Part shown: positions 23,501-36,981 of the stretch, in pieces | Numbering within the stretch: position 1 is the stretch's first letter | How the letters are laid out: each line of letters starts with the position of its first letter | NCBI GenBank assembly: GCA_028285265.1 | Contig: JANQPX010000030.1 | Span: forward strand, 124,001 to 188,000 | Origin: Geminicoccaceae bacterium | GTDB lineage: Bacteria > Pseudomonadota > Alphaproteobacteria > Geminicoccales > Geminicoccaceae | Length of the DNA stretch: 64,000 bases | Direction: 5' to 3' | Made by a program: the position numbers and the translations under genes | Notes under the pieces: generated by a model | The model's database searches: none | Told to the model about the DNA's origin: nothing | What the model saw: the letters and a program-made list of their open reading frames with translations, nothing else

Positions 23501-23534
23501 TCAGTCAGCAGAGGCCACATCGGGAGATATTGTT

Positions 23535-24101
23535 GTGACAGTTCTAGACAATCAAAATTCGAGTGAAGACATACTTCCATGCATGCGCCGACGCGAGTTG
23601 CTGATGGCCAGTGCCGTCGGGGCAACGGCGGCGACGTTGGCGCCTGGCGTGACCATGGCAGCGACTGAGGGTGGGGCTGGCACCTATCCGCGTCTCTCCG
23701 TGATCAGGATGAGTGATCTCATTGAGGGCGAGCCGGTCGCGTTCAGCTACCCGCTCGAAGAACAGCCCAACATGATCGTCAAGCTGGGAACGCCGGCACA
23801 AGGCGGCGTCGGGCCGGATGAGGACATCGTCGCGTTCAGCGTGCTCTGCACCCATATGGGCGGCAGTTTGCGTGGCAAATACAACCACGAATTCAAGTCG
23901 ATGGGCCCGTGCCCGTTCCATTTCTCGACCTTCGACCTGACCAAGAGCGGCGCGATTGTGCATGCCAGCGCTACCCAACATCTACCGCAGGTGAAGCTCG
24001 AAGTGGACGGCGATGATGTGATCGCCGTCGGCATGAACGGCCTTGTCTATGGCTACCGCGACAATCTCAAGGACGGCTCGCCTGTCGTCATGCAGGGCTG
24101 A
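23535..24101 (+). CDS. Rieske 2Fe-2S subunit of an Aio-like oxidase
   Basis: Small subunit of an arsenite-oxidase-family enzyme, passing electrons from the Mo subunit to a cytochrome. The 188-residue protein starts at a GTG eight bases after GGGAG. A twin-arginine signal (MRRRELLMAS, 17-26) would also carry the large subunit out. The Rieske cluster is Cys105-x-His107 and Cys126-x2-His129. The two extra Cys that form a disulfide in bc1-type Rieske proteins are Gly110 and Phe128 here. It is followed 35 bases later by the large subunit. Confidence 0.85.
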   Translation: MTVLDNQNSSEDILPCMRRRELLMASAVGATAATLAPGVTMAATEGGAGTYPRLSVIRMSDLIEGEPVAFSYPLEEQPNMIVKLGTPAQGGVGPDEDIVAFSVLCTHMGGSLRGKYNHEFKSMGPCPFHFSTFDLTKSGAIVHASATQHLPQVKLEVDGDDVIAVGMNGLVYGYRDNLKDGSPVVMQG

Positions 24102-24136
24102 CCAGGCTGGTCCGAGAGAACATGGGATAAGAGACG

Positions 24137-26773
24137 ATGGCGAAACGAAACGATCTTTCTGAGAAACAAGCGGTTAGCCGGCGGGGTCTGCTGCTCGCGC
24201 AGCGCAGCCCCTCGATCGACTATGGTGTCTACCAACCGGCGGTCGACGAGGTGCCGGTGCCGCCTGCGGATGCCGAGGTGCATCCCACAGCCTGCGAATA
24301 CTGCATCGTCGGCTGTGGCTACAAGGCCTACACCTGGCCGGTGGACAAGGAGGGCGGCCCGAAGGCGGATCAAAACGTGTTCGGAAAGGACTATCCGATC
24401 AAACCGGCGAGCGGCAATTGGGCCAGCCCGGAAATGCACAGCATCGTCCGCAAGGACGGCGAGCTGCACAACCTGCTGGTCATTCCCGATGGCGAGACCG
24501 CCGTCAATCGGAAGGGCAATCACTCCGTGCGCGGCGGCCGTTCCGCTCAAAAGCCCTACAGCCCAAACCGACCGACCTCGGACCGCCTGCAGGCACCAAT
24601 GGTGCGCGTGAACGACACGTTGCAGGCGATCTCTTGGGAGGACGCCACCTCGATCATTGCCGAGCTTTCACAATATGCGATCGAAAAGGAGGGCCCGAAC
24701 GCGTTTGGCATGCGCTACTACTCCTATCAGTTCTGGGAGAACACGTTTGCGCTGACCAAGCTGATCTACAAGAACATCGGGACAGCGGTCGGTGCCGAGC
24801 ATGACAAGCCGACGGCTTCCAACGACGCAACCGGTCTTGATGACTGCGGCGTCGACGGCTTCTCGACCTCCTACTCCGACTTCCAGCAGGCCGACGTGAT
24901 CTTCATGTCCGGCTTCGACCCTTACGAAAACCAGACGATCCTGTTTACTGAGTGGATTGCCCCTGGCGGTGCCAAGATCATCTTCGTCAACCCGCGAAAG
25001 AGCCCGACCGCGGTTTATGCGGAGCGGAACGGCGGCCTGCACCTGCAGGTGCAGCCGAACACCGACACGGTCCTGAACAACGCCATCCAGCGCTACATCA
25101 TCGAGCAAGGCTGGGAGGATCGTGAGTGGATCGATCGGATGACGGTCAGCCGCGACGACATCGAATCCGAAGACCCCAAGCACTGGCGCCGCCGGTCGTT
25201 CGGTCAGACCTTCGAAGAGCATAAGGCCTGGCTGCTTTCCGACGACACCTACACGCTTGAAAACGCTGAGCGCATCACCTGGGTGCCGAAGGAAAAGATC
25301 ATCAAGGCAGCCGAGATGCTCGCGCGGCCGCGTGGCAAGCTGCGGACCAAGGCGGCTTTCATGCTAGAGAAGGGCAATTATTGGTCCTTCAACTTCCCGG
25401 CCAGTGCGTCCCTTTCCTCACTCGGTCTGGTCTGCGGCGCTGGCAGCCGGCCCGGTCATAATATGAGCCGCGCTGGCGGTCATCAGCGCGGCGGCATGAA
25501 GGCGGCGGGTTATCCGCTGAAGAAATCCTGGGTGAAATCGAAGCACGGCCGCCAGGGCGAGAACGCCCTGATGCCGGTGAACTTCGATGAATATGCCATG
25601 TCCGGCAAGCTCAAGGTCGCCTGGATCCTCGGCACCACCTGGCTCGACTCGATGAACGCCGCCCAGGCCATCCGGCTGAAGCTGGGCGAGATGACCAGGA
25701 AGCATCCGATCTATCCGGAAAGCCTGGACAAGAATGCAATCGTCGAGGCGTTCAAGCGGCGCATGGACGACGGTGGCATGTTTCTGATCCAGCAGGACAT
25801 CTTCCCGAACTCGCTGACCCAGTTTGCCGACATCGTGCTGCCTGCTGCAACCTGGGGCGAGGTCGACTTCGCACGCGCCCAAGGCGAGCGCCGCCTCCGC
25901 ATCTACTCGCGCTTCAATGATGCGCCGGGTGACGCAAAGCCCGACTGGTGGATCATTGCCCAGGTCGCCAAGAAGATGGGTTACGAGGGCTTCGATTGGG
26001 AAGAGTCCAACGACGTCTTCGAAGAGGCGGCAATGAAGTCCGAGGGTGGTCACTATGACGCCTCCAACCTGGTACGCATTGCCCGGGAAAAGGGCATGAA
26101 GACTCACGAGCTTCTGCGTGAGATGAGCACCACGGGCATTCAGCTGCCCGCCCGTATCGTCAATGGCGAACTCAAGGGAACGCTTCGTCTGCACGACGAG
26201 ACCTTCCCCGCTGAAGAGGTCGACACCGCGCCCAAGATCGTAAAGCAATTCAAGACCGCGAGTGGCAAAGCGATCTTCATGAAGGGCGACTGGGACCTAG
26301 TGAAGGACACCTTCGAGCAGTTCCGTCCGCAAGGGGACGAGCTTTGGGTTTCGAATGGCCGGATCAACCACATCTGGCAGTCCATGTATGACGACGCGAG
26401 GAATCCCTTCGTCAAATCGCGCTATCCCTCGAACTTCCTAATGATCAATCCGGCGGACGCTGAACCGCGCGGCATCGAAAGTGGCGATCTGGTCACGGTC
26501 GAGAACGACAAGGTGCTGAACCAGCTCGGCGAGATGTCCCGTGGTGTTGTCTCCCTCGTCGCCTACGTCACCGACGAGGTGGGCGAGGGTGTTACCTACA
26601 CCTACGCCTTCTATCCCGGCCAATCCGCCGACCTTGTCGTGCCCGCCGTCACCGACCCGGTGACCGGCGTCTACAACTACAAGATCGGCAAGGGCGTGGT
26701 GAAGAAGTCAGGCGAGACGCCGCTCAAGTCGGTCGATGGCAGCATGTCCTTCATTCCACGGACAGTCGGTTGA
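24137..26773 (+). CDS. Aio-family molybdopterin oxidoreductase, catalytic subunit
   Basis: An 878-residue DMSO-reductase-superfamily enzyme, closest by eye to arsenite oxidase AioA (usually about 820-850 residues). The 3Fe-4S motif is Cys53-x2-Cys56-x3-Cys60 (CEYCIVGCGY), with a Ser (HSVRGG, Ser130) where AioA has Ser rather than a fourth Cys. SRAGGHQ (Arg445, His449) matches the Arg and His that help bind arsenite in AioA. In contrast, the region 223-261, where AioA has its His and Glu ligands, holds neither His nor Glu (Thr232 at the His position). The substrate is therefore open. It is exported with the Tat-signalled Rieske subunit. Confidence 0.9.
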   Translation: MAKRNDLSEKQAVSRRGLLLAQRSPSIDYGVYQPAVDEVPVPPADAEVHPTACEYCIVGCGYKAYTWPVDKEGGPKADQNVFGKDYPIKPASGNWASPEMHSIVRKDGELHNLLVIPDGETAVNRKGNHSVRGGRSAQKPYSPNRPTSDRLQAPMVRVNDTLQAISWEDATSIIAELSQYAIEKEGPNAFGMRYYSYQFWENTFALTKLIYKNIGTAVGAEHDKPTASNDATGLDDCGVDGFSTSYSDFQQADVIFMSGFDPYENQTILFTEWIAPGGAKIIFVNPRKSPTAVYAERNGGLHLQVQPNTDTVLNNAIQRYIIEQGWEDREWIDRMTVSRDDIESEDPKHWRRRSFGQTFEEHKAWLLSDDTYTLENAERITWVPKEKIIKAAEMLARPRGKLRTKAAFMLEKGNYWSFNFPASASLSSLGLVCGAGSRPGHNMSRAGGHQRGGMKAAGYPLKKSWVKSKHGRQGENALMPVNFDEYAMSGKLKVAWILGTTWLDSMNAAQAIRLKLGEMTRKHPIYPESLDKNAIVEAFKRRMDDGGMFLIQQDIFPNSLTQFADIVLPAATWGEVDFARAQGERRLRIYSRFNDAPGDAKPDWWIIAQVAKKMGYEGFDWEESNDVFEEAAMKSEGGHYDASNLVRIAREKGMKTHELLREMSTTGIQLPARIVNGELKGTLRLHDETFPAEEVDTAPKIVKQFKTASGKAIFMKGDWDLVKDTFEQFRPQGDELWVSNGRINHIWQSMYDDARNPFVKSRYPSNFLMINPADAEPRGIESGDLVTVENDKVLNQLGEMSRGVVSLVAYVTDEVGEGVTYTYAFYPGQSADLVVPAVTDPVTGVYNYKIGKGVVKKSGETPLKSVDGSMSFIPRTVG

Positions 26774-26790: not shown

Positions 26791-27549
26791 ATGAAGACTT
26801 TCATGACGACAACGGCGCTCTCGGTAGCCGGCGCGGCCGTCCTGGCCATGGGAATCTCTGAACAGAGCCTCGCCCAATCCGCGGTACAGGAGGCGACCGA
26901 CGAACTCCTGGCACTCGGCGAGAAGACCTATATGCGCGAATGCGTGGCATGCCACGGTGCCGAGGGCGATGGCGAGGGGCCGGGCAAATACATCCTGAGT
27001 GAGAAGCCGAGGAACTTCCAGCTCGCCACCTATAAGTTCCGTTCGACGCCGAGCGGCGACGTGCCGTTGCCTGAGGATCTGTTCAAGACCATCACCAACG
27101 GGCTTCAAGGAAACGGTGCCGCGATGCCGGCTTTCGCCTCTCTTTCCGAGGACGAGCGCTGGGGGCTGGTGCATTACATCATCCAGCTTGGCGGCATCGA
27201 GGACGAAGAGCCGGAGGCGATCGAAGTGCCGGCGGAGCCTGAAATCACTGAAGCCAGGCTGGCGAACGGGGCGGACGTCTATAACCGTCTCAAATGCGCC
27301 ACCTGCCACGGCGATGACGGCTGGGGTGACGGTCCGTCCTCTTTGACGCTCAAGAATGATGCCAAGGAGCAGGTTTATCCGACCAATATCGCGATCGGCA
27401 TCTTCAAGGGCGGCACCAGTGGCGTGGAGCTCTATAAACGGATCGCCACCGGTCTCGACGGTTCGCCCATGCCATCTTACGCCGACGAAGCGTCGCCGGA
27501 CGAGATCTGGGACGTCGTCCATTACACGCTGAGCCTGGTCGAAAAGTAG
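26791..27549 (+). CDS. Dihaem cytochrome c
   Basis: A 252-residue periplasmic electron carrier with a signal peptide (about residues 1-29) and two c-type domains: CVACH (51-55) with a later MPAF methionine, and CATCH (169-173) with PMPSY. AGGGAG lies before the ATG, 17 bases after the molybdoenzyme stop. It is the obvious acceptor for electrons from the Rieske subunit. The two domains closely resemble the last two domains of the CcoO fusion at 31446-33185 (shared PRNF, YKFRST, SGSPMPSY-like stretches). Confidence 0.93.
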   Translation: MKTFMTTTALSVAGAAVLAMGISEQSLAQSAVQEATDELLALGEKTYMRECVACHGAEGDGEGPGKYILSEKPRNFQLATYKFRSTPSGDVPLPEDLFKTITNGLQGNGAAMPAFASLSEDERWGLVHYIIQLGGIEDEEPEAIEVPAEPEITEARLANGADVYNRLKCATCHGDDGWGDGPSSLTLKNDAKEQVYPTNIAIGIFKGGTSGVELYKRIATGLDGSPMPSYADEASPDEIWDVVHYTLSLVEK

Positions 27550-27618: not shown

Positions 27619-28356
27619 ATGAAGGCGAGCACATTCACGATGGCCTTGGTCGCGAGCACGGCCCTGGCCGCGACTGCGGCCGAGGCCAAATACAAAGAGA
27701 CCGAGGTCACCGACGGCGGCAGCGTTCAGGGTGCTGTTATGTTCGACGGGGCCGCTCCCGACCTGCCTCTCGCGGAGATCGCCAAGGACAACGAGGTCTG
27801 TGGCGACGGTAGTGTCATTCCCAATCCAGTAACGATCGGCGCAGGCGGCGAGCTTGAAGGTGTGGTGGTCTATCTGGAGGAGGTCAACGAGGGCAAAGCC
27901 TGGCCGGAGCAGGAGTACGTTCTGGACCAGCAGGAATGTGCTTTTGAGCCCTATCTACAGGTGGTGCCGAAAGGCGTCGAAATGACGATAAAGAACAGTG
28001 ATCCCGTCTTGCACAATGTGCATCCCTTCGAGATCGTCGGCGACAAGCGGCGCACACTTTTTAACTTGGCCCAGCCACAGCAGGATCAGGTCAACACCAA
28101 GAAGATCAAAACGCGCAGAGGTAAGGCGGTCGAGCTTGCCTGTGACGCCCACGCTTGGATGGCCGGCTGGCTCTATGTTCTGGAGCACCCATACTACGCC
28201 GTGGTCGGCGCCGATGGCACGTTCGAGATCGGCGACATCCCGCCCGGTGACTATAATCTGGTTGCCTGGCATCCAGTTCTCGGCACCCAGGAACAGGATA
28301 TCCAGATTGCCGCCGGCGGTGCTGCGGACGCGTCGTTCCAATTCATCGGCAACTGA
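27619..28356 (+). CDS. Cupredoxin-like secreted protein
   Basis: A 245-residue protein with a signal peptide. The C-terminal half has HNVHPFE (132-138) and CDAHAWM (Cys175, His178, Met181), which together fit a type-1 copper site His...Cys-x2-His-x2-Met. It resembles plastocyanin-like proteins annotated as methylamine-utilisation or carboxypeptidase-regulatory-like; the final part (IPPGDYNLVAWHPVLG) matches that fold. AAGGAA precedes the ATG. It may be a second electron carrier of the cluster; copper binding is inferred. Confidence 0.75.
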   Translation: MKASTFTMALVASTALAATAAEAKYKETEVTDGGSVQGAVMFDGAAPDLPLAEIAKDNEVCGDGSVIPNPVTIGAGGELEGVVVYLEEVNEGKAWPEQEYVLDQQECAFEPYLQVVPKGVEMTIKNSDPVLHNVHPFEIVGDKRRTLFNLAQPQQDQVNTKKIKTRRGKAVELACDAHAWMAGWLYVLEHPYYAVVGADGTFEIGDIPPGDYNLVAWHPVLGTQEQDIQIAAGGAADASFQFIGN

Positions 28357-28501: not shown

Positions 28502-29443
28502 ATGAATGCGATCACTCACATCCTACTGACGAAAGCCGCGAGGATAGGCGCGGTCGCTACAGTCGCTTTCGGCTTTCCGTCAGGTGCGGCCTTGGCCTCC
28601 GACGATGTCGAAACAGTGCTCAAATCCTATCTGCGCGCCCTTTACAGCCGTGACGCACAAACAGCTTACGAACGCCTCTCGTCGATGGATCATTCCATCA
28701 AGACATTTGATGAGTATGCGCAGGAGGTCGGCGCGTTTGACGGCCCTGCGCTGGTCGTCGCCAAAGCACTCGCCGAGCAGATCGACTTCGGTGCCTTTGA
28801 GATCGAAGAGGCGGACGATCACGTCGACGTTACCTTCGACGTCACCCTTCCCAATGCCAACGATCCCGCCATCAAGGAGATGATGCGCAGCTTTGACGCC
28901 AAACGGCTGAGCGAACTGACGCCGTCAGAGATCGAGACGCTGATGGCCGACATCGAGACGATGCGTTTGACCGGTGGGCTTCCCGTGCTCGAATCCGAGG
29001 GCGAGCGCTGGTCGCTGGTGCGCGAAGGCGATCAGTGGCGCGTTTTCGAGAACTGGGCAGAGGCGGTCGAGGTCCGTTTCGATGCCGCGACCTTCCACGA
29101 TTTGCCATGGGAATTCGAGCCCGTGCGCACGCGCGTGATGGCGAAGCATGGTGAAACCATCCAGATGGCCTATCGCGCCAGGAATGTCGGCGACGAAGAG
29201 ATCACGGCGAAGGCACGGCACATCATTGGACCGGACGACGATGCCGATTTTCTCGACATCATTTCCTGCTTCTGTTTCCTCGAAGAGACCCTGGCGCCGG
29301 GCGAAGCGACCGAGTTGAGTCTGGTCTTCAGGGTGGACTACGAGGCGCCCGACGACGCCACGGCCTTCACTGTCAAGTACGAATTCTATCCGGCCGAGCG
29401 CTTTCCCGAGGTCGAGCAAGCCCATGCGCGGGGCCAGCGCTGA
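28502..29443 (+). CDS. Secreted protein: NTF2-like region fused to a Cox11/CtaG domain
   Basis: A 313-residue protein. Residues 1-33 are a signal peptide, and about 34-185 form a region with the feel of an NTF2-like or SnoaL-like fold (LKSYLRALYSRDAQTAYERL, then GDQWRVFENW). Residues about 200-305 match Cox11: LPWEFEPVRT, GETIQMAYRARN, and the copper-binding CFCF (256-259) followed by LAPGEATEL. Normal Cox11 is anchored by a membrane helix and delivers copper to the CuB site; here the helix is replaced by this other domain. AGGGG lies before the ATG. It overlaps the next gene by one base. Confidence 0.8.
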   Translation: MNAITHILLTKAARIGAVATVAFGFPSGAALASDDVETVLKSYLRALYSRDAQTAYERLSSMDHSIKTFDEYAQEVGAFDGPALVVAKALAEQIDFGAFEIEEADDHVDVTFDVTLPNANDPAIKEMMRSFDAKRLSELTPSEIETLMADIETMRLTGGLPVLESEGERWSLVREGDQWRVFENWAEAVEVRFDAATFHDLPWEFEPVRTRVMAKHGETIQMAYRARNVGDEEITAKARHIIGPDDDADFLDIISCFCFLEETLAPGEATELSLVFRVDYEAPDDATAFTVKYEFYPAERFPEVEQAHARGQR

Positions 29444-29999: not shown

Positions 30000-31433
30000 A
30001 TGTCTAACGCAGCCGCAATGCCGACGATGAACTCACAGGAACTGGATGATCTCGTCGACAGACCGCTTGTCCGAAAGTGGCTGCTGACCGGCATGTTCTG
30101 GCTCATGTTCGGGCCGACCGTCGGCGCCGTCATCTCCACCTTCTTCAACTACCCCGACTATATGGGCACGGCGCTGGAGCTGCAGTTCGGTCGCCTTCGC
30201 CCGCTGCATGTGAACGGCGTGATCTTCGGCGCCTTCTCCACGCTGTTCATCGGCCTTTGCTACTACGTCGTGCCGCGCCTCTGCGGCGTGCGCGTCGTCT
30301 GGGAGGATTGGGCCCACCGTCTTTGCTGGATCTGGAACCTGACGCTCGCCGCCGGCATGGTGTCGCTCGCTTTCGGCTACAACCAAGGTCTCGAAGCAGG
30401 CGAGTTTCCGTTCTTCGTCGATCTCGTCATCTTTGTCGCGATCACCTTTCTTTGCGCGCAATTCCTGGTAACTACGGCGAACCGCAAGGAGCCGCAGCTC
30501 TACGTTTCCATGTGGTATCTACTCGCCGGCTTTGTCTGGACCGTGATGACGATGATTCTGGGCTCGTTCATCCTGCCCTACTTCATCTCCGGCATCTCGA
30601 GCGCCGCCTTCCACGGCCTCTATATCCACTACATCGTCGGTCTCTGGATCACGCCCGCTGGCTACGTCCTCATCTACTACTTCCTGCCGGCAGCCGTGCA
30701 GAACCCGATCTACAGCCACAAGCTCTCCCTGGTCGGCTTCTGGTCGCTTGCCCTCTTCTACCCCTTCGTCGGCATTCACCACTATCTCTACTCGCCGATC
30801 GCGGATTGGGCGGAGACGCTGGCGATCATCACCTCCATGCTGCTGATCATCCCTGTCTGGACCGTGCTCCAGAATTTTTTCGGGACGATGATCGGCCGCT
30901 GGCGCGACTTCGGCAAGAACCTGCCGGCCAAGTTCTTCATCATGGGCTCGATCATGTATCTGATCGGCTGCTTCCAGGGCTCGACCGAGGCGCTGCGCTC
31001 GATCCAGGAGCCGACCCACTTCACTGACTTCGTGATCTCGCACTCCCACCTCACGATCTTCGGCACCTTCGTGGTCTGGGCGGTGGGTGGCCTGGTTTAT
31101 GTCTGGCCGAAAATCCACGGCCGCGAACTCTGGTCGTTCAAGGCGGGCAACTGGTCGTTCTGGCTGATTACGTTAGGCATCAGCACCATGGGCATCGTGC
31201 TGACCGCGCAAGGCCTGCAGCAGGGTTACATGTGGATGGCTGGCGTCGAGTGGATGGACTCGCTTGTACCGCTCAAGGCGTTCTGGTTCACCCGCACCGT
31301 CGCGGGAATCATCATGGATCTCGGCATGACGCTGCTGGTCTACAACCTGATCCGCACCGCGATGCCTGAAGAGTCGGTCTCACCTGAGACCACCGGGACC
31401 GCGTCGCCTGTGCCATCTCCCGCGACTGCCTAG
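30000..31433 (+). CDS. ccoN: cbb3-type cytochrome c oxidase subunit I (CcoN)
   Basis: Catalytic haem b / haem b3-CuB subunit of a cbb3-type oxidase, reducing O2 to water. The 477-residue protein starts at an ATG preceded by GGGGAAAGAAG. It has about 12 membrane helices. Ligands are visible: His70, His210 (YIHYIVGLW), His260-His261 (GIHHY), His348 and His350 (SHSH). The catalytic Tyr of the cbb3 class lies six residues before the HH pair (Tyr254). The gene lies inside the Aio-like block, 35 bases after the DUF4382-like gene. Confidence 0.94.
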   Translation: MSNAAAMPTMNSQELDDLVDRPLVRKWLLTGMFWLMFGPTVGAVISTFFNYPDYMGTALELQFGRLRPLHVNGVIFGAFSTLFIGLCYYVVPRLCGVRVVWEDWAHRLCWIWNLTLAAGMVSLAFGYNQGLEAGEFPFFVDLVIFVAITFLCAQFLVTTANRKEPQLYVSMWYLLAGFVWTVMTMILGSFILPYFISGISSAAFHGLYIHYIVGLWITPAGYVLIYYFLPAAVQNPIYSHKLSLVGFWSLALFYPFVGIHHYLYSPIADWAETLAIITSMLLIIPVWTVLQNFFGTMIGRWRDFGKNLPAKFFIMGSIMYLIGCFQGSTEALRSIQEPTHFTDFVISHSHLTIFGTFVVWAVGGLVYVWPKIHGRELWSFKAGNWSFWLITLGISTMGIVLTAQGLQQGYMWMAGVEWMDSLVPLKAFWFTRTVAGIIMDLGMTLLVYNLIRTAMPEESVSPETTGTASPVPSPATA

Positions 31434-31445
31434 CGAGTAGAAACA

Positions 31446-33185
31446 ATGCTTACTATGAACCTCAGAACGGTCTCGCTGGTCGCCGGTTTCGGCTTCGTCA
31501 CGCTCGCGACCTTCACCCAGGGCGTTCTGCCGATGCTCGAGCCGCAAACGCTGACCGACAAGGTGACCCGCGTGGTGCGCACCGATCTCGGTGAGCTGAA
31601 ATGGATAGAAGCCCAGGCGGTCGACTACACGCCCGAAGAACAGATGGGCCGGGACATCTATATCCGCGAGGGCTGCTGGTACTGCCATTCGCAATATGTC
31701 CGTCCGGTCACCGGAGAGACGCTGCGCTGGGGGCCGATCACCCAGGCCGGTGAGTATGCCTATGATACACCACATCTTTTCTCGACACGGCGCATCGGCC
31801 CCGACCTTTCGCGTGTGGGTCTGAAATATTCGGACGAGTGGCACTATGCCCACTTTTGGGATCCGCGCATGATCATCCCGGAGTCGATCATGCCGCGTTT
31901 TATGAAGCTGTTCGATGCGCCCGAAGAACCTGTGGCCGTGGTCGACGGTCCGGATGGTCTCAAGACCGTCGAGCAGAATGAGGTCACCGAGGCCATTTTC
32001 GACTTTTCCAAAGCCGGAGATGCGGCTGCACATCTCAAGATTACCCCCAATCAAGACGGCCTCTTGTTTGTACCGGAGCGCGGAAAATATCCCGTGATCT
32101 GGACACCGAACGATGAGTTCACTGGAGACAACGTCGAGCTTGCCGTGGTGACCGAGGAACTGACGTCGCTGGTCGCCTATCTGCAAAAGCTCGGCATGAA
32201 TCGTGGCAAATGGCGCGATGTGTTCGCCTCGCAGACCGCGGATATCAGCCAGGTGAGCTTGGAAAGAGATGAGGAGTGGATCGGGCTTGGGCGGAAGGTC
32301 TATGACCGCCGCTGCGCTGGCTGCCACGGCGTCGAAGGAGACGGCAATGGCCCGGCGGCGACTTTCACCTACCGGGACCGTCCGCGCAATTTCAACCAGG
32401 CTGTGTTCAAATTCCGATCGACGGGCTCCGACTCGCTGCCGACCGATGGTGATCTGCTGCGAACTTTGGTGAGAGGCGTTCGCGGCACGTCGATGCCAGC
32501 CTGGCACATGCTGTTGGAGAAGGAACGCCAAGCGGTCATTCAATATATCAAATACGAACTGGCCGTGGATCGCTCGGATCCTGAAGATCCTTATGTGATC
32601 TTCGAAGAGGAGGAGCCTGAGGAGCCCATCCATATAGCCCGTGCGCCCGAACCCGACGAGGACATGATCGCCGAAGGCCAGGAGATCTGGCAGCAGGCCA
32701 AGTGCTGGGAGTGCCATGGCGAGACTGGCAAAGGCGATGGCCCGAAGTCTGTAGGCTTGAAGGACGACAACAAGTTTCTGATCTGGCCTGCCGATCTGAC
32801 CACTGGTCAGTTCAAATCAGGACCGTCCGTGCGGGATATGTTCCGCACGATCTCCAATGGACTGAGTGGATCGCCGATGCCGTCTTACTCGGACTCGTTT
32901 GACGAAGATGAGCGCTGGGCGCTTGCTTACTACGTGATGTCGCTTTCCTCCTTTACCGATCCCTTGAGCCGCAAGCCGCTCGTCATCGACGACGCCGATC
33001 GCGACGCACTGAACGATCCTGATCTTGAGGCGCGTCGATCAGAAGACGCTTACAAGCCGGAGAAGGCCATCGCCGACTCGAACACGCGCTATGGCGGGAA
33101 TGCCTGGGCGAAGCGGCGCGGTATGGAGGTTATCGGCGATGCGAATGCCGACGAGACACGGACGTTTGAGATCAAGCAGCAATGA
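31446..33185 (+). CDS. CcoO fused to a dihaem cytochrome c module
   Basis: A 579-residue membrane protein. Residues 1-250 match CcoO: an N-terminal helix, CWYCH (77-81), SQYVRPVTGET, RIGPDLSRVG, DPRMIIPESIMP. Two further c-type domains follow, CAGCH (290-294) with GTSMPAWH and CWECH (420-424) with SGSPMPSY. In usual cbb3 oxidases the two extra haems sit on CcoP, a separate subunit. Here they are on the same chain as CcoO. The C-terminal tail (about 500-579) is hydrophilic and unlike known domains. Confidence 0.9.
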   Translation: MLTMNLRTVSLVAGFGFVTLATFTQGVLPMLEPQTLTDKVTRVVRTDLGELKWIEAQAVDYTPEEQMGRDIYIREGCWYCHSQYVRPVTGETLRWGPITQAGEYAYDTPHLFSTRRIGPDLSRVGLKYSDEWHYAHFWDPRMIIPESIMPRFMKLFDAPEEPVAVVDGPDGLKTVEQNEVTEAIFDFSKAGDAAAHLKITPNQDGLLFVPERGKYPVIWTPNDEFTGDNVELAVVTEELTSLVAYLQKLGMNRGKWRDVFASQTADISQVSLERDEEWIGLGRKVYDRRCAGCHGVEGDGNGPAATFTYRDRPRNFNQAVFKFRSTGSDSLPTDGDLLRTLVRGVRGTSMPAWHMLLEKERQAVIQYIKYELAVDRSDPEDPYVIFEEEEPEEPIHIARAPEPDEDMIAEGQEIWQQAKCWECHGETGKGDGPKSVGLKDDNKFLIWPADLTTGQFKSGPSVRDMFRTISNGLSGSPMPSYSDSFDEDERWALAYYVMSLSSFTDPLSRKPLVIDDADRDALNDPDLEARRSEDAYKPEKAIADSNTRYGGNAWAKRRGMEVIGDANADETRTFEIKQQ

Positions 33186-33194
33186 GGCCAAGCG

Positions 33195-33356
33195 ATGTTT
33201 GAACAGACAATCCTTCAATTCCTCGTGGCCGCGTTTATGAGCTTGGGCGGTGTGTGCGTATTCATCTGGGCGGTTCTCTCCGGTCAGTTCAATGGGATCG
33301 AAGAACCAAAATATCGCGTCTTCGAGATGGAGAGGGATGACGATGTCCGACAATAG
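33195..33356 (+). CDS. ccoS: CcoS-like oxidase assembly protein
   Basis: A 53-residue protein with one membrane helix. The stretch VFIWAVLSGQFNGIEEPKYRV matches the CcoS signature FIWAVxSGQFDDLExPAYR. In known systems CcoS is needed for cofactor insertion into CcoN. The stop overlaps the next gene's start by 14 bases. Too short for a long-frame search but well supported by motif and place. Confidence 0.85.
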   Translation: MFEQTILQFLVAAFMSLGGVCVFIWAVLSGQFNGIEEPKYRVFEMERDDDVRQ

Positions 33357-33540
33357 TTCCGGTCATAATAAGGACGTGCCGCATCACCAGCAGGTCGAGA
33401 GCTATGGCGGCGGCCATATTGAGGCGCGTCACGGACGGGTCAATCTCTGGCTCGCCCTCGTCTATCTCATCATGTTCATCTGGGCGATCTACTACGGCTT
33501 CACATATTGGGGCGGTCTCGGCCCCGGCCTCGACTACTAA
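33343..33540 (+). CDS. CcoP-like single-helix membrane stub without haem motifs
   Basis: A 65-residue protein: a hydrophilic N-terminus rich in His (VPHHQQVES), then one membrane helix (VNLWLALVYLIMFIWAIYYGF), then GGLGPGLDY. This layout resembles the N-terminal membrane part of CcoP, which ends in a Trp/Tyr-Pro-Gly stretch before its cytochrome domain. There is no CXXCH. The two cytochrome domains may have moved to CcoO, leaving the membrane part as its own gene. The start overlaps ccoS. Confidence 0.7.
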   Translation: MSDNSSGHNKDVPHHQQVESYGGGHIEARHGRVNLWLALVYLIMFIWAIYYGFTYWGGLGPGLDY

Positions 33541-33653: not shown

Positions 33654-33758
33654 ATGGATATCGGTCTAAAAGTCCTTCTCGGCTATACGATCTTGAATGG
33701 TGCGATCCTGAGTTACGATCTCGCCTATAACATTGTCCGTGCCTTGGGCGTCTTTTAG
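33654..33758 (+). CDS. Very small membrane-like protein
   Basis: A 34-residue frame (MDIGLKVLLGYTILNGAIL...) with one hydrophobic stretch. It lies in the small-gene run of the cbb3 block, 113 bases after the CcoP-like stub, and 11 bases before another 34-residue frame. I do not recognise it. Small single-helix subunits such as CcoM or CcoH-type helpers occur in cbb3 oxidases, so it could be one of these. Confidence 0.5.
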   Translation: MDIGLKVLLGYTILNGAILSYDLAYNIVRALGVF

Positions 33759-33769
33759 GGGGGACTGTC

Positions 33770-33874
33770 ATGATGGGAGCGATGTCCGCACCTGAGCTGT
33801 TCGGCTTCACTATCTTCATCGCGATGACCGTCGCGTTCTTCGCCTGGATCGCCTATCTGATCTTTTTCAGATAG
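33770..33874 (+). CDS. Very small membrane-like protein
   Basis: A 34-residue frame with a clear single hydrophobic helix (FTIFIAMTVAFFAWIAYLIFF) ending in Arg. GGGGGGA stands just before the double ATG, a strong ribosome binding site. It is likely real and likely a small oxidase subunit or assembly aid, judged from place and composition only. Confidence 0.6.
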   Translation: MMGAMSAPELFGFTIFIAMTVAFFAWIAYLIFFR

Positions 33875-33979: not shown

Positions 33980-34777
33980 ATGAGTGCCTTTCTGGTCGCT
34001 ATGTTGGCAGGTGTCGCCGGCAGTTTTCATTGCGTTGGCATGTGCGGCGGCTTCGCCTGCGGCCTTGCCCAGGCGCGAGGGGGGCCAAGATCCGCATTTG
34101 TGATCCAAGGCCTTCTCTACAATACTGGCCGTGTCGTCAGCTACGCCTTCATCGGCGCCCTTGCCGGGCTTCTTGGGCATGTGCTCATTGGCGGGCATGC
34201 GCATTCGGTAGGTGTGGCCCCGAACTTCGCCGCGATCGCTATGGATGCCACGACACATGGCATGATCACGGCTGAGCTGATGCCGGAGCCCCACGGCATG
34301 GTTCTGGCTGGCGAGATCGGCTGGGCGCAGCGAAGCCTGTCCATCCTTGCAGGGTTGCTGATGCTGGTGATGGCCTCGGAGCTCTTGGGCCTGCGCCGTC
34401 GAGCCCCCGCAAACTGGACAAGACTAGGCAGCGAGGGCTTCGCCAAGGTTTTTCGTACATTGTTGACATCCAAGCGCCCAACAGCAGCGTTGGCGCTCGG
34501 TGTTGCCAATGGATTTTTGCCCTGCCCGTTGGTCTTCGCCTTCGCTGCGGCGGCCGTCGCCACTGGAACCGTCGTCGATGCGGTCCTGCTGATGACCGCC
34601 TTCGGACTTGGCACCTTTCCAGCCATGTTTTTCATGGGCACCGTCGGTTTCTTCATGACGCCCGTGGCGCGCAAATGGGGTGTGCGCTTTTCCGGCGTCT
34701 TTGTCCTGGCAATCGGGCTGGTGACCTTCATACGCGGCCTTGCGCCGAACCTGCTGCATGGCATGCACATGACATGA
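33980..34777 (+). CDS. SafE/TauE-family membrane protein of a cbb3 cluster
   Basis: A 265-residue protein with about seven helices. The N-terminus has GSFHCVGMCGG, and a later GFLPCPLVFA; these Cys-containing helices are usual in the SafE/TauE (UreH-like) members that sit beside ccoGHIS genes. Start chosen at the ATG in front of MSAFLVAML. Such proteins are proposed to move or hand over copper for oxidase assembly, but the substrate is not proven. It overlaps the ATPase gene by four bases. Confidence 0.85.
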   Translation: MSAFLVAMLAGVAGSFHCVGMCGGFACGLAQARGGPRSAFVIQGLLYNTGRVVSYAFIGALAGLLGHVLIGGHAHSVGVAPNFAAIAMDATTHGMITAELMPEPHGMVLAGEIGWAQRSLSILAGLLMLVMASELLGLRRRAPANWTRLGSEGFAKVFRTLLTSKRPTAALALGVANGFLPCPLVFAFAAAAVATGTVVDAVLLMTAFGLGTFPAMFFMGTVGFFMTPVARKWGVRFSGVFVLAIGLVTFIRGLAPNLLHGMHMT

Positions 34778-36981
34778 CAGATTTGCCGGCCAGGACCTCG
34801 ATTTCTGATTTTGCCAACGCTGACGCCGTCGAAGGCGCATCCGCAGCTTCTCCGTTCTGCGATCACTGCGGTCTGCCGCTTGGGCGTCTGGACTATCGGC
34901 GCGACGACGAAGATCAGCCTGTACAGTTCTGTTGCTACGGCTGCTATATCGGCTGGCAGGCGGCGAGAGGCGGTGGGGATGATGTCGCCGCGGTCGGCTT
35001 TTTGATTCGCTTGGGCGTCGGCGCCTTCCTGGCGATGAATATCATGCTCTTCAGCCTGCTCCTCTACACAGGCGCGCTCGACGGTATCGATCTCTGGCTG
35101 AAGCCCTACGTGCACGGTCTTCTCTGGATTTTGGCAACGCCGGTACTGATTATCCTCGGAGGACCATTTTTTAGAGAAGCGATCACCGGTCTTATCGACG
35201 GCAGGCTTGTATCATCCGTCCTGGTCGTGATTGGCACGTCAGCGGCTTATGCCTATTCGGCCATTATCACGTCGCAGGGCGGCGATCGCGTTTACTTCGA
35301 CGCCGTGGCCCTGATCTTGGTGCTCTTCACCCTTGGCCGATATCTGGAAGCCGAAGGCCGCGCCCGTGCCGCGCGCAGCCTTCGGCCCTTCCTCAATGCC
35401 GAACAGCTAAAGGTACGTTGCCTCATCGATGATCGCGAGCTTGTTCTGCCACTTGCAGAAGTGACACCAGGCATGCGGGTTCGGATCGAGCCTGGCGAGC
35501 GCACGCCGGTCGACGGTAAGGTGATTGAGGGTGTGTCGACGGCCGAGGAATCATCGCTCACCGGTGAACCCTGGCCTGCAGAGAAACAACCGGGTGCGGA
35601 CGTGCTCGCCGGCAGTTACAATGGGGATGGTGTTCTCATCGTCGAGGCGACGGCTCCCGGCCTCAACTCTCGCTGGATCACCATCTGCCGAGAAGTTCGA
35701 CAGGCCCTGTCGCAGCCGACGCACTTGCAGCGGCTCGCCGACAAGGTTGCTAGGCTGTTTGTGCCCTCGGTGATGATCATCGCTGTCGTTGCGGCTTGGT
35801 TCAACGGCCATGACGGAACGATCGATGCCGCCCTTTTGTCCGGCCTTGCCGTTCTCGTCGTCGCCTGTCCCTGCGCGCTTGGCCTCGCCTCGCCGTTAGC
35901 CACCAGCATGGCTGTCGGTCGCTTGGTCGAGGCTGGTATCACGCTTCGCCACGGCCTTGCACTTGAGGCTCTCGCGAGCGTGCGCACAATGGCCCTGGAT
36001 AAAACCGGCACGCTCACCGCTGGTCATATCACATGTCGGGAGACGGTCGACATCGCTGCTGATCCTTGTGACGGCTTGTGGCGCGCCGTCAGCCTCGCGG
36101 TTCATTCGAAACATCCGATCTCCAAGGCCATCTGCCGAACGGCCGCTGAGCACGGTATTGAGGGCTGTGCGGCTTCGGAGGTCGAGATCGTACCGGGCAT
36201 GGGTATTCGCGGCACTATCGACGGTGAGATCGTGATCTTGGGCAATGCGCGCTGGCTTAAGAGCGCAGGGATCGATCTGCCGGAGAGGGTGCAAAGAAAG
36301 ATGATCGCGGCGACAGAACAGGGACGGATGCTCGTCTTGGTCGGCTGGAACGGACAGGCGCGCTTCCTCATGACCTTCGACGACGTCAACCACCCCGATG
36401 CAGAGGCGCTGATCAAGATCCTCCGGAATGACGGCGTACACACCATCGTTCTTACCGGCGATGGCAAGCAGCAGACGGAACGGTTTTGTCGCTCGCTGGG
36501 CATCGATCACTGGTTTGCGGAGACCACGCCCGAAGGCAAATGCGCTGTTTTGGACGCCATTGCGGCGAATCGACGGCCGCTCGCCATGGTGGGAGATGGA
36601 GCCAACGACACGACAGCGCTGACCCGCGCAGACGTGGGCATCGCCGTGGGCAGCGGCACGGATCTGGCGCGTGAAACCGCTGACATCGTGCTACCGTCAG
36701 CAGGAATCGCTGCATTGCCCATCCTCCTTCGGCTGGCGCGTGTCACCAAAAGAACGATTGCGACGAACCTCACCTGGGCTTTCGGCTACAACATTATCGC
36801 CATCGGTCTCGCCACAGCCGGTCTGCTCCAGCCGATCATCGCTGCCACCCTCATGGCCGGTTCTAGCCTCGCGGTCGTCGCCAACACCGTGATGAGACTA
36901 GCACCAGGGGATCAAGTGGGAGGTTCGGGAAGACCTTCGCCACGTCAATCATCGGCGGGAGGGGCCGTATCAGCGCAATGA
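34774..36981 (+). CDS. ccoI: CcoI-type copper-transporting P-type ATPase
   Basis: A 735-residue P1B ATPase that exports copper for oxidase assembly. The N-terminus has CDHCG (29-33) and CCYGC (53-57), the metal-binding arrangement typical of CcoI. The transmembrane CPCALGLASP, the phosphorylation site DKTGTLT and GDGANDTTAL are present. The ATGA overlap with the preceding SafE gene shows coupled translation. Neither ccoG nor ccoH is seen beside it. Confidence 0.95.
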   Translation: MTDLPARTSISDFANADAVEGASAASPFCDHCGLPLGRLDYRRDDEDQPVQFCCYGCYIGWQAARGGGDDVAAVGFLIRLGVGAFLAMNIMLFSLLLYTGALDGIDLWLKPYVHGLLWILATPVLIILGGPFFREAITGLIDGRLVSSVLVVIGTSAAYAYSAIITSQGGDRVYFDAVALILVLFTLGRYLEAEGRARAARSLRPFLNAEQLKVRCLIDDRELVLPLAEVTPGMRVRIEPGERTPVDGKVIEGVSTAEESSLTGEPWPAEKQPGADVLAGSYNGDGVLIVEATAPGLNSRWITICREVRQALSQPTHLQRLADKVARLFVPSVMIIAVVAAWFNGHDGTIDAALLSGLAVLVVACPCALGLASPLATSMAVGRLVEAGITLRHGLALEALASVRTMALDKTGTLTAGHITCRETVDIAADPCDGLWRAVSLAVHSKHPISKAICRTAAEHGIEGCAASEVEIVPGMGIRGTIDGEIVILGNARWLKSAGIDLPERVQRKMIAATEQGRMLVLVGWNGQARFLMTFDDVNHPDAEALIKILRNDGVHTIVLTGDGKQQTERFCRSLGIDHWFAETTPEGKCAVLDAIAANRRPLAMVGDGANDTTALTRADVGIAVGSGTDLARETADIVLPSAGIAALPILLRLARVTKRTIATNLTWAFGYNIIAIGLATAGLLQPIIAATLMAGSSLAVVANTVMRLAPGDQVGGSGRPSPRQSSAGGAVSAQ

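Follow-up and report, generated by a model that had tools for sequence, protein, structure and literature searches.

The locus described here shares much with the canonical CcoNOQP oxidases (P. stutzeri, 3mk7; R. capsulatus, 6xkw): the CcoN ligands, the mono-haem domain of CcoO, ccoS, ccoI and a helix of the FixP_N type. However, it has none of the CcoP haem domains, and its CcoO is extended. CcoP is usually viewed as the cytochrome through which electrons enter these enzymes, and its helix as an anchor. In R. capsulatus, this helix adjoins CcoN helices 8 and 9 (PMC7876108).

The closest described relative is the oxidase of Nitrospina gracilis, for which a three-haem fusion has already been reported, together with His202, Gly203 and Tyr208 (P. 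stutzeri numbering) around CuB (Lucker et al., 2013; PMC3578206); that paper notes these CuB residues in Sinorhizobium too. The subunit fusion is restated in a later Nitrospinota paper (PMC10839748), and nothing further emerged from the Nitrospinota and Nitrospirales papers searched. Like the system in our window, the Nitrospina oxidase has two extra c haems on its CcoO part and the same unusual CuB residues, but there a single 954-aa gene was read as CcoN-O-P, with the dihaem part assigned to subunit III. The passages found in PMC3578206 and PMC10839748 make no mention of a separate CcoP-helix stub.

Two further systems bear comparison. The bifunctional CcoO-cytochrome c family NF011054/PRK14486 is likewise a CcoO fused to an extra cytochrome c, but its model has 294 positions, the window protein, at 196 bits, falls short of the cut-off of 447, and the definition includes no stub. 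The other is chain B of 6h5l, from the anammox HAO-like complex Kustc0457/Kustc0458, which resembles the dihaem module of our CcoO over its whole length (41% identity) but is the partner of an HAO-like enzyme and not part of an oxidase. Neither a conserved CcoP-helix subunit, nor the two micro-ORFs described below, nor a swap of haem modules was found in the open literature searched.

Layout of the locus and its catalytic subunit

The window is a 64,000-nucleotide stretch of the genome of a Geminicoccaceae bacterium. The oxidase genes, the possible donors and several small genes are arranged as follows:

26794-27549, + strand: periplasmic dihaem cytochrome c, separate gene (40% identity, 176 bits to the dihaem part of CcoO)
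27619-28356, + strand: putative cupredoxin-like protein with a CarboxypepD_reg-like end (homologues in most alpha, gamma and delta loci and some Nitrospirota loci)
30000-31433, + strand: ccoN-like catalytic subunit, 477 aa (PF00115, 243 bits)
31446-33185, + strand: ccoO fused to a dihaem cytochrome c module, 579 aa (PF02433, 158.7 bits, plus two cytochrome c stretches)
33195-33356, + strand: ccoS-like maturation protein, 53 aa (PF03597 FixS, 30.9 bits, cut-off 23.1)
33343-33540, + strand: CcoP-helix stub, a haem-free, FixP_N-like single-helix protein, 65 aa (conserved family, FixP_N homology)
33654-33758, + strand: micro-ORF 1, 34 aa, one hydrophobic helix (conserved family, n=44)
33770-33874, + strand: micro-ORF 2, 34 aa, one hydrophobic helix (conserved family, n=44)
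33980-34777, + strand: DsbD_2-like membrane protein of the TauE/SafE type (PF13386, 137 bits; conserved operon)
34774-36981, + strand: ccoI-like copper P-type ATPase (homologue, conserved gene order)

Upstream of ccoO lie ccoN and the genes for a DUF4382 protein, a Cox11-like protein, the cupredoxin-like protein, the dihaem cytochrome c and an AioA-like molybdoenzyme. Within the window there is no normal ccoP, as a sequence-only reading of this DNA had stated. The stub ORF overlaps the 3' end of the ccoS-like gene, whose family has 54 members across related loci, and the order of the genes for the DsbD_2-like protein and the ccoI-like ATPase is kept in most alpha and gamma loci. The two micro-ORFs match no family in Pfam, the nearest approach being one member of the micro-ORF 2 family with 11.4 bits to FixQ, below significance; in L089, L096, L098, L099 and L121, micro-ORF 2 is joined in frame to the stub.

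The six haem and CuB histidines of CcoN (H70, H210, H260, H261, H348 and H350) and the cross-link Tyr254 are kept in 69 of 69 family members. With TIGR00780 (ccoN), the window protein scores 226.5 bits, below the curated cut-off of 583, and from its sequence it is a divergent relative and not a canonical ccoN equivalog. The residues around CuB are of the Nitrospina type (H205-G206-L-Y208-I-H210-Y211), and they separate the family sharply from canonical CcoN: H205 and Y211 occur in all 69 members but in none of 15 canonical sequences, and G206 in all 69 but in only one of the 15. Relative to canonical CcoN, Trp203 is replaced by Gly and Asn208 by Tyr; at window position 326 Glu has mostly given way to Gln, and at position 240 Tyr has become His. 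In the CcoN tree, the family forms its own clade (SH-aLRT 99). A reading as NO reductase was set aside on the strength of the cross-link Tyr, conserved throughout the family. Taken at the level of sequence, the locus would encode a divergent cbb3-type (C-family) oxygen reductase.

The dihaem module of CcoO

CcoO contains three CXXCH motifs, CWYCH at residue 77, CAGCH at residue 290 and CWECH at residue 420, distributed over a membrane-anchored mono-haem domain (FixO, residues 60-251) and a dihaem part (residues 270-502). The two additional c-type domains that the sequence-only reading had recognized are where it placed them, after CWYCH, although they make up about 40% of the protein's length and not the third that it gave.

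The same reading held that CcoP had been split, its own two haem domains having shifted to the C-terminus of CcoO and its helix having been left behind as a separate gene. The division of features between the two proteins fits such an event, with two extra c haems on CcoO and none on a stub that is itself FixP_N-like, and an AU test rejected neither a clade uniting the CcoO dihaem parts with CcoP (p 0.24) nor a single origin of the module (p 0.24). The module itself, however, appears to have its closest relatives elsewhere. Its best scores, 170-183 bits, are with soluble or EB_dh-type dihaem cytochromes, compared to 42 bits with CcoP, and among solved structures it scores 169.8 bits with 6h5l_B but 22.6 bits with CcoP (3mk7_C). 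An AF2 model (pLDDT 80.1) superposes on 6h5l_B at 1.5 Å over 219 of 220 residues, with a Z score of 29.1, and reproduces both the two-domain fold and the arrangement of the domains over the full unit (Foldseek E 6.3e-19), whereas CcoP superposes on the model over one domain only (89 residues, Z 12.2). In the tree of dihaem modules, built without two long-branch rows, CcoP is set apart from all others with support of 100/100.

From these scores and the predicted fold, the extra haem domains of CcoO appear not to be CcoP-like but to be a different dihaem module of the 6h5l_B type, and a transfer of CcoP's own domains is quite unlikely. Because both the module scores and the structural match point to 6h5l_B and not to CcoP, the proposed split is better read as a CcoP cut down to its helix, with its haems replaced. 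Fused and soluble modules are intermixed in the tree, and the module may therefore have been acquired by CcoO more than once.

The single-helix stub

The protein that follows ccoS was described in the sequence-only reading as a 65-residue single-helix protein with the character of the N-terminal membrane part of CcoP. Its sequence contains a single hydrophobic stretch and lacks any CXXCH; the two CXXCH haem domains of CcoP are absent from it. As to its kinship, a profile comparison gives different answers for the family and for the single copy: 37 of 44 stub members match PF14715 (FixP_N), with a best E value of 7.3e-7, no other family among the 24,736 Pfam models compared being matched nearly as often, and against the curated cut-off of 24.9 bits, L107 scores 29.2 and L104 24.9, but the window copy alone has no match in Pfam or NCBIfam, FixP_N included. 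When an HMM of the CcoP N-terminal region was run against 12,097 ORFs, stubs filled about the first 45 ranks. Comparison of the stub and CcoP N-terminal profiles with hhalign gave 80% and 88%, depending on direction (P 1.4e-5 and 3e-6), compared to at most 0.2% for CcoS and both micro-ORF families as controls.

A helper protein of the CcoQ, CcoH or assembly-factor kind could resemble CcoP merely by virtue of being a membrane helix, and several properties of the stub would suit this: it is short, it has one helix, the window copy goes unmatched in Pfam, and in a search of the PDB with the stub profile P. stutzeri CcoP comes only at rank 4 (E 0.68). Against this, the similarity is specific to FixP_N, both among the Pfam models and relative to control helices from the same operon, and a pattern ahead of the helix, GI.E......P.W, aligns with CcoP in register; we consider an unrelated origin improbable. 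Since the stub is a single helix, the strength of any homology claim is limited, but within that limit the profile evidence supports a kinship of the stub family with the N-terminal domain of CcoP.

Stubs from members of the branch comprising Nitrospinota, Gallionellaceae and Nitrospirota retain the CcoP-like motif GIxER..(I/V)P.WL. The sampled CcoP sequences all have a Glu two positions beyond the Ile; this Glu is kept in the Nitrospinota- and Gallionella-type stubs, and most alpha and gamma stubs, including that of the window, have Ala or Ser there. A Glu near this position in Vibrio cholerae CcoP is, we assume, at the entrance of a proton channel.

Distribution of the arrangement

The combination of a three-haem CcoO and a stub recurs in about 64 related loci from about eight bacterial phyla, among them Pseudomonadota, Nitrospirota, Nitrospinota, Tectimicrobiota, Acidobacteriota and Gemmatimonadota. 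CcoN was a better probe than CcoO for finding relatives: it retrieved some at 71% and 55% identity, and 70 loci in a second collection, whereas a CcoO search of 385 genomes of the class returned no full-length homologue, just the dihaem part or ordinary CcoO. The recurrence far exceeds what chance would give: a stub HMM matches 65 ORFs, those of 64 loci and the window (L056 and L110, both within this count, are one record), and every family locus that reaches past CcoO has a stub. Those lacking one are of two kinds: four family loci whose contigs stop short of it, and four distant CcoN homologues (approximately 30-34% identity), in which no clear stub is seen; the Chloroflexota and Meiothermus operons among the latter have a CcoO with one extra haem only.

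All family loci with an unbroken ccoO gene encode the three CXXCH motifs; the interrupted copies are those of L092, with an assembly gap, and L102, with a frameshift. In L102, from Manganitrophus, the dihaem part is spread over two frames (L102:9398-10235), reflecting either a frameshift or a sequencing error. In Nitrospinota, Gallionellaceae and part of Nitrospirota, CcoN and CcoO are a single protein, and the stub remains a separate gene.

Two side observations concern relatives of the fused CcoO. Homologues of the three-haem CcoO are found on at least 39 rhizobial plasmids (records H1-H12), 33 of which are predicted to be conjugative, and the oxidase is therefore probably mobile among symbionts; the annotation of a Phyllobacterium plasmid lists ccoS, the stub and one of the micro-ORFs as hypothetical proteins. 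In genome G596 (L057:2601-3890, - strand), a CcoN of 37% identity is next to a further three-haem CcoO, of 429 aa, and a helix protein of 64 aa that shows no similarity to FixP_N, an arrangement that is possibly an independent fusion.

A normal dihaem ccoP elsewhere in the genome, with a product that co-purifies with this CcoN, had been named in the sequence-only reading as evidence that would count against it. The window genome, from an assembly with 7% estimated contamination, does encode two ordinary FixP_N proteins (C74 and C16), which leaves room for a canonical CcoP borrowed from another operon, with the stub as an accessory. Each of the two, however, is near other ccoN genes, and the CcoO of the window already has two extra haems. 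Moreover, in a survey of 36 related genomes, many of them incomplete MAGs, at least 20 are without a canonical ccoP: FixP_N goes unmatched in 16, and in G748, G749, G750 and G760 the only match, judged by its coordinates, is the stub. Borrowing of this kind is very improbable.

Neighbouring genes and possible electron donors

In most alpha, gamma and delta loci and in some from Nitrospirota, the oxidase is accompanied by a cupredoxin-like protein, a metallophosphoesterase and a SoxA/TsdA-type cytochrome c, a module seen at L055:7952-10439 and in about 42 other loci. The metallophosphoesterase and the SoxA/TsdA-type cytochrome are absent from the window, which, like L064, has an AioA-like enzyme in place of that module. 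At 23534-26773 the window contains an AioBA-like pair, a Rieske protein and a molybdoenzyme (TIGR02693, 476.6 bits, cut-off 359), and the molybdoenzyme scores approximately 326 bits with solved AroA/AioA. The cupredoxin-like protein at 27619-28356 is a possible electron donor, its putative copper role being suggested by the motif HNVH...CDAHAWM. Taken together across loci, the gene neighbourhoods make the oxidase look like a module coupled to varying periplasmic electron donors.

An exported-looking protein of 313 aa encoded at 28502-29443 has a Cox11/CtaG-like domain at its end (PF04442, 91.5 bits), and the Cox11-like protein is found in the window, L063 and L064. Cox11 usually serves A-type oxidases.

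A model for the oxidase and the role of the helix

The reading we favour, to which we assign a probability of roughly 0.78, is that CcoP was truncated to its helix with loss of its haems, and that a dihaem module of another kind, acquired by CcoO, has taken over from CcoP as the point of electron entry. It draws on gene content, conservation, homologies and a predicted fold, and from these we infer the roles of the parts. CcoN would be the catalytic subunit; CcoO would contribute its own c haem and, in CcoP's place, the C-terminal module of the 6h5l_B type; and what is left of CcoP, its N-terminal transmembrane domain, would be a separate, haem-free subunit of 65 aa. The electron path would begin at a periplasmic donor, for which the dihaem cytochrome encoded at 26794-27549 and the cupredoxin-like protein encoded at 27619-28356 are candidates, and would lead through the dihaem module, the CcoO haem and haem b to haem b3/CuB. 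The stub would pack on CcoN at the usual site of the CcoP helix, serving stability and assembly and possibly forming part of a proton-channel mouth, and the two 34-aa helix peptides may be additional small subunits.

The stub is constant, even where canonical CcoP is absent, and this suggests that it has a structural or proton-path role. Its constancy could also be explained the other way round, by a free helix subunit that predates the fusion to a dihaem cytochrome by which CcoP was made: the stub is present in every complete family locus across many phyla, and members of one branch keep the CcoP-like motif. On this view the oxidase would preserve an older design. But the tree is unrooted, the family clade sits among remoter CcoN lineages whose sampled operons have no clear stub, and CcoP occurs widely among oxidases of the C family; we regard an ancestral stub as unlikely. 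Truncation of CcoP remains our preferred account of the stub. More tentatively, as a broader and still doubtful proposition, the free-standing CcoP-helix subunit could be a constant functional part of this oxidase lineage, representing either a primitive, pre-CcoP state or proof of a separate function for the helix. Such a function, for example at the mouth of a proton channel, may have outlasted the loss of the CcoP haems.

The arrangement occurs in tractable rhizobia as well as in relatives of Nitrospina and Manganitrophus, and is therefore directly testable. Small genes that are called hypothetical proteins in an annotated record gain an identity. The exchange of the haems and the retention of the helix as its own gene argue that the helix has a needed role in the membrane, and that electron entry to the oxidase is exchangeable as a module.
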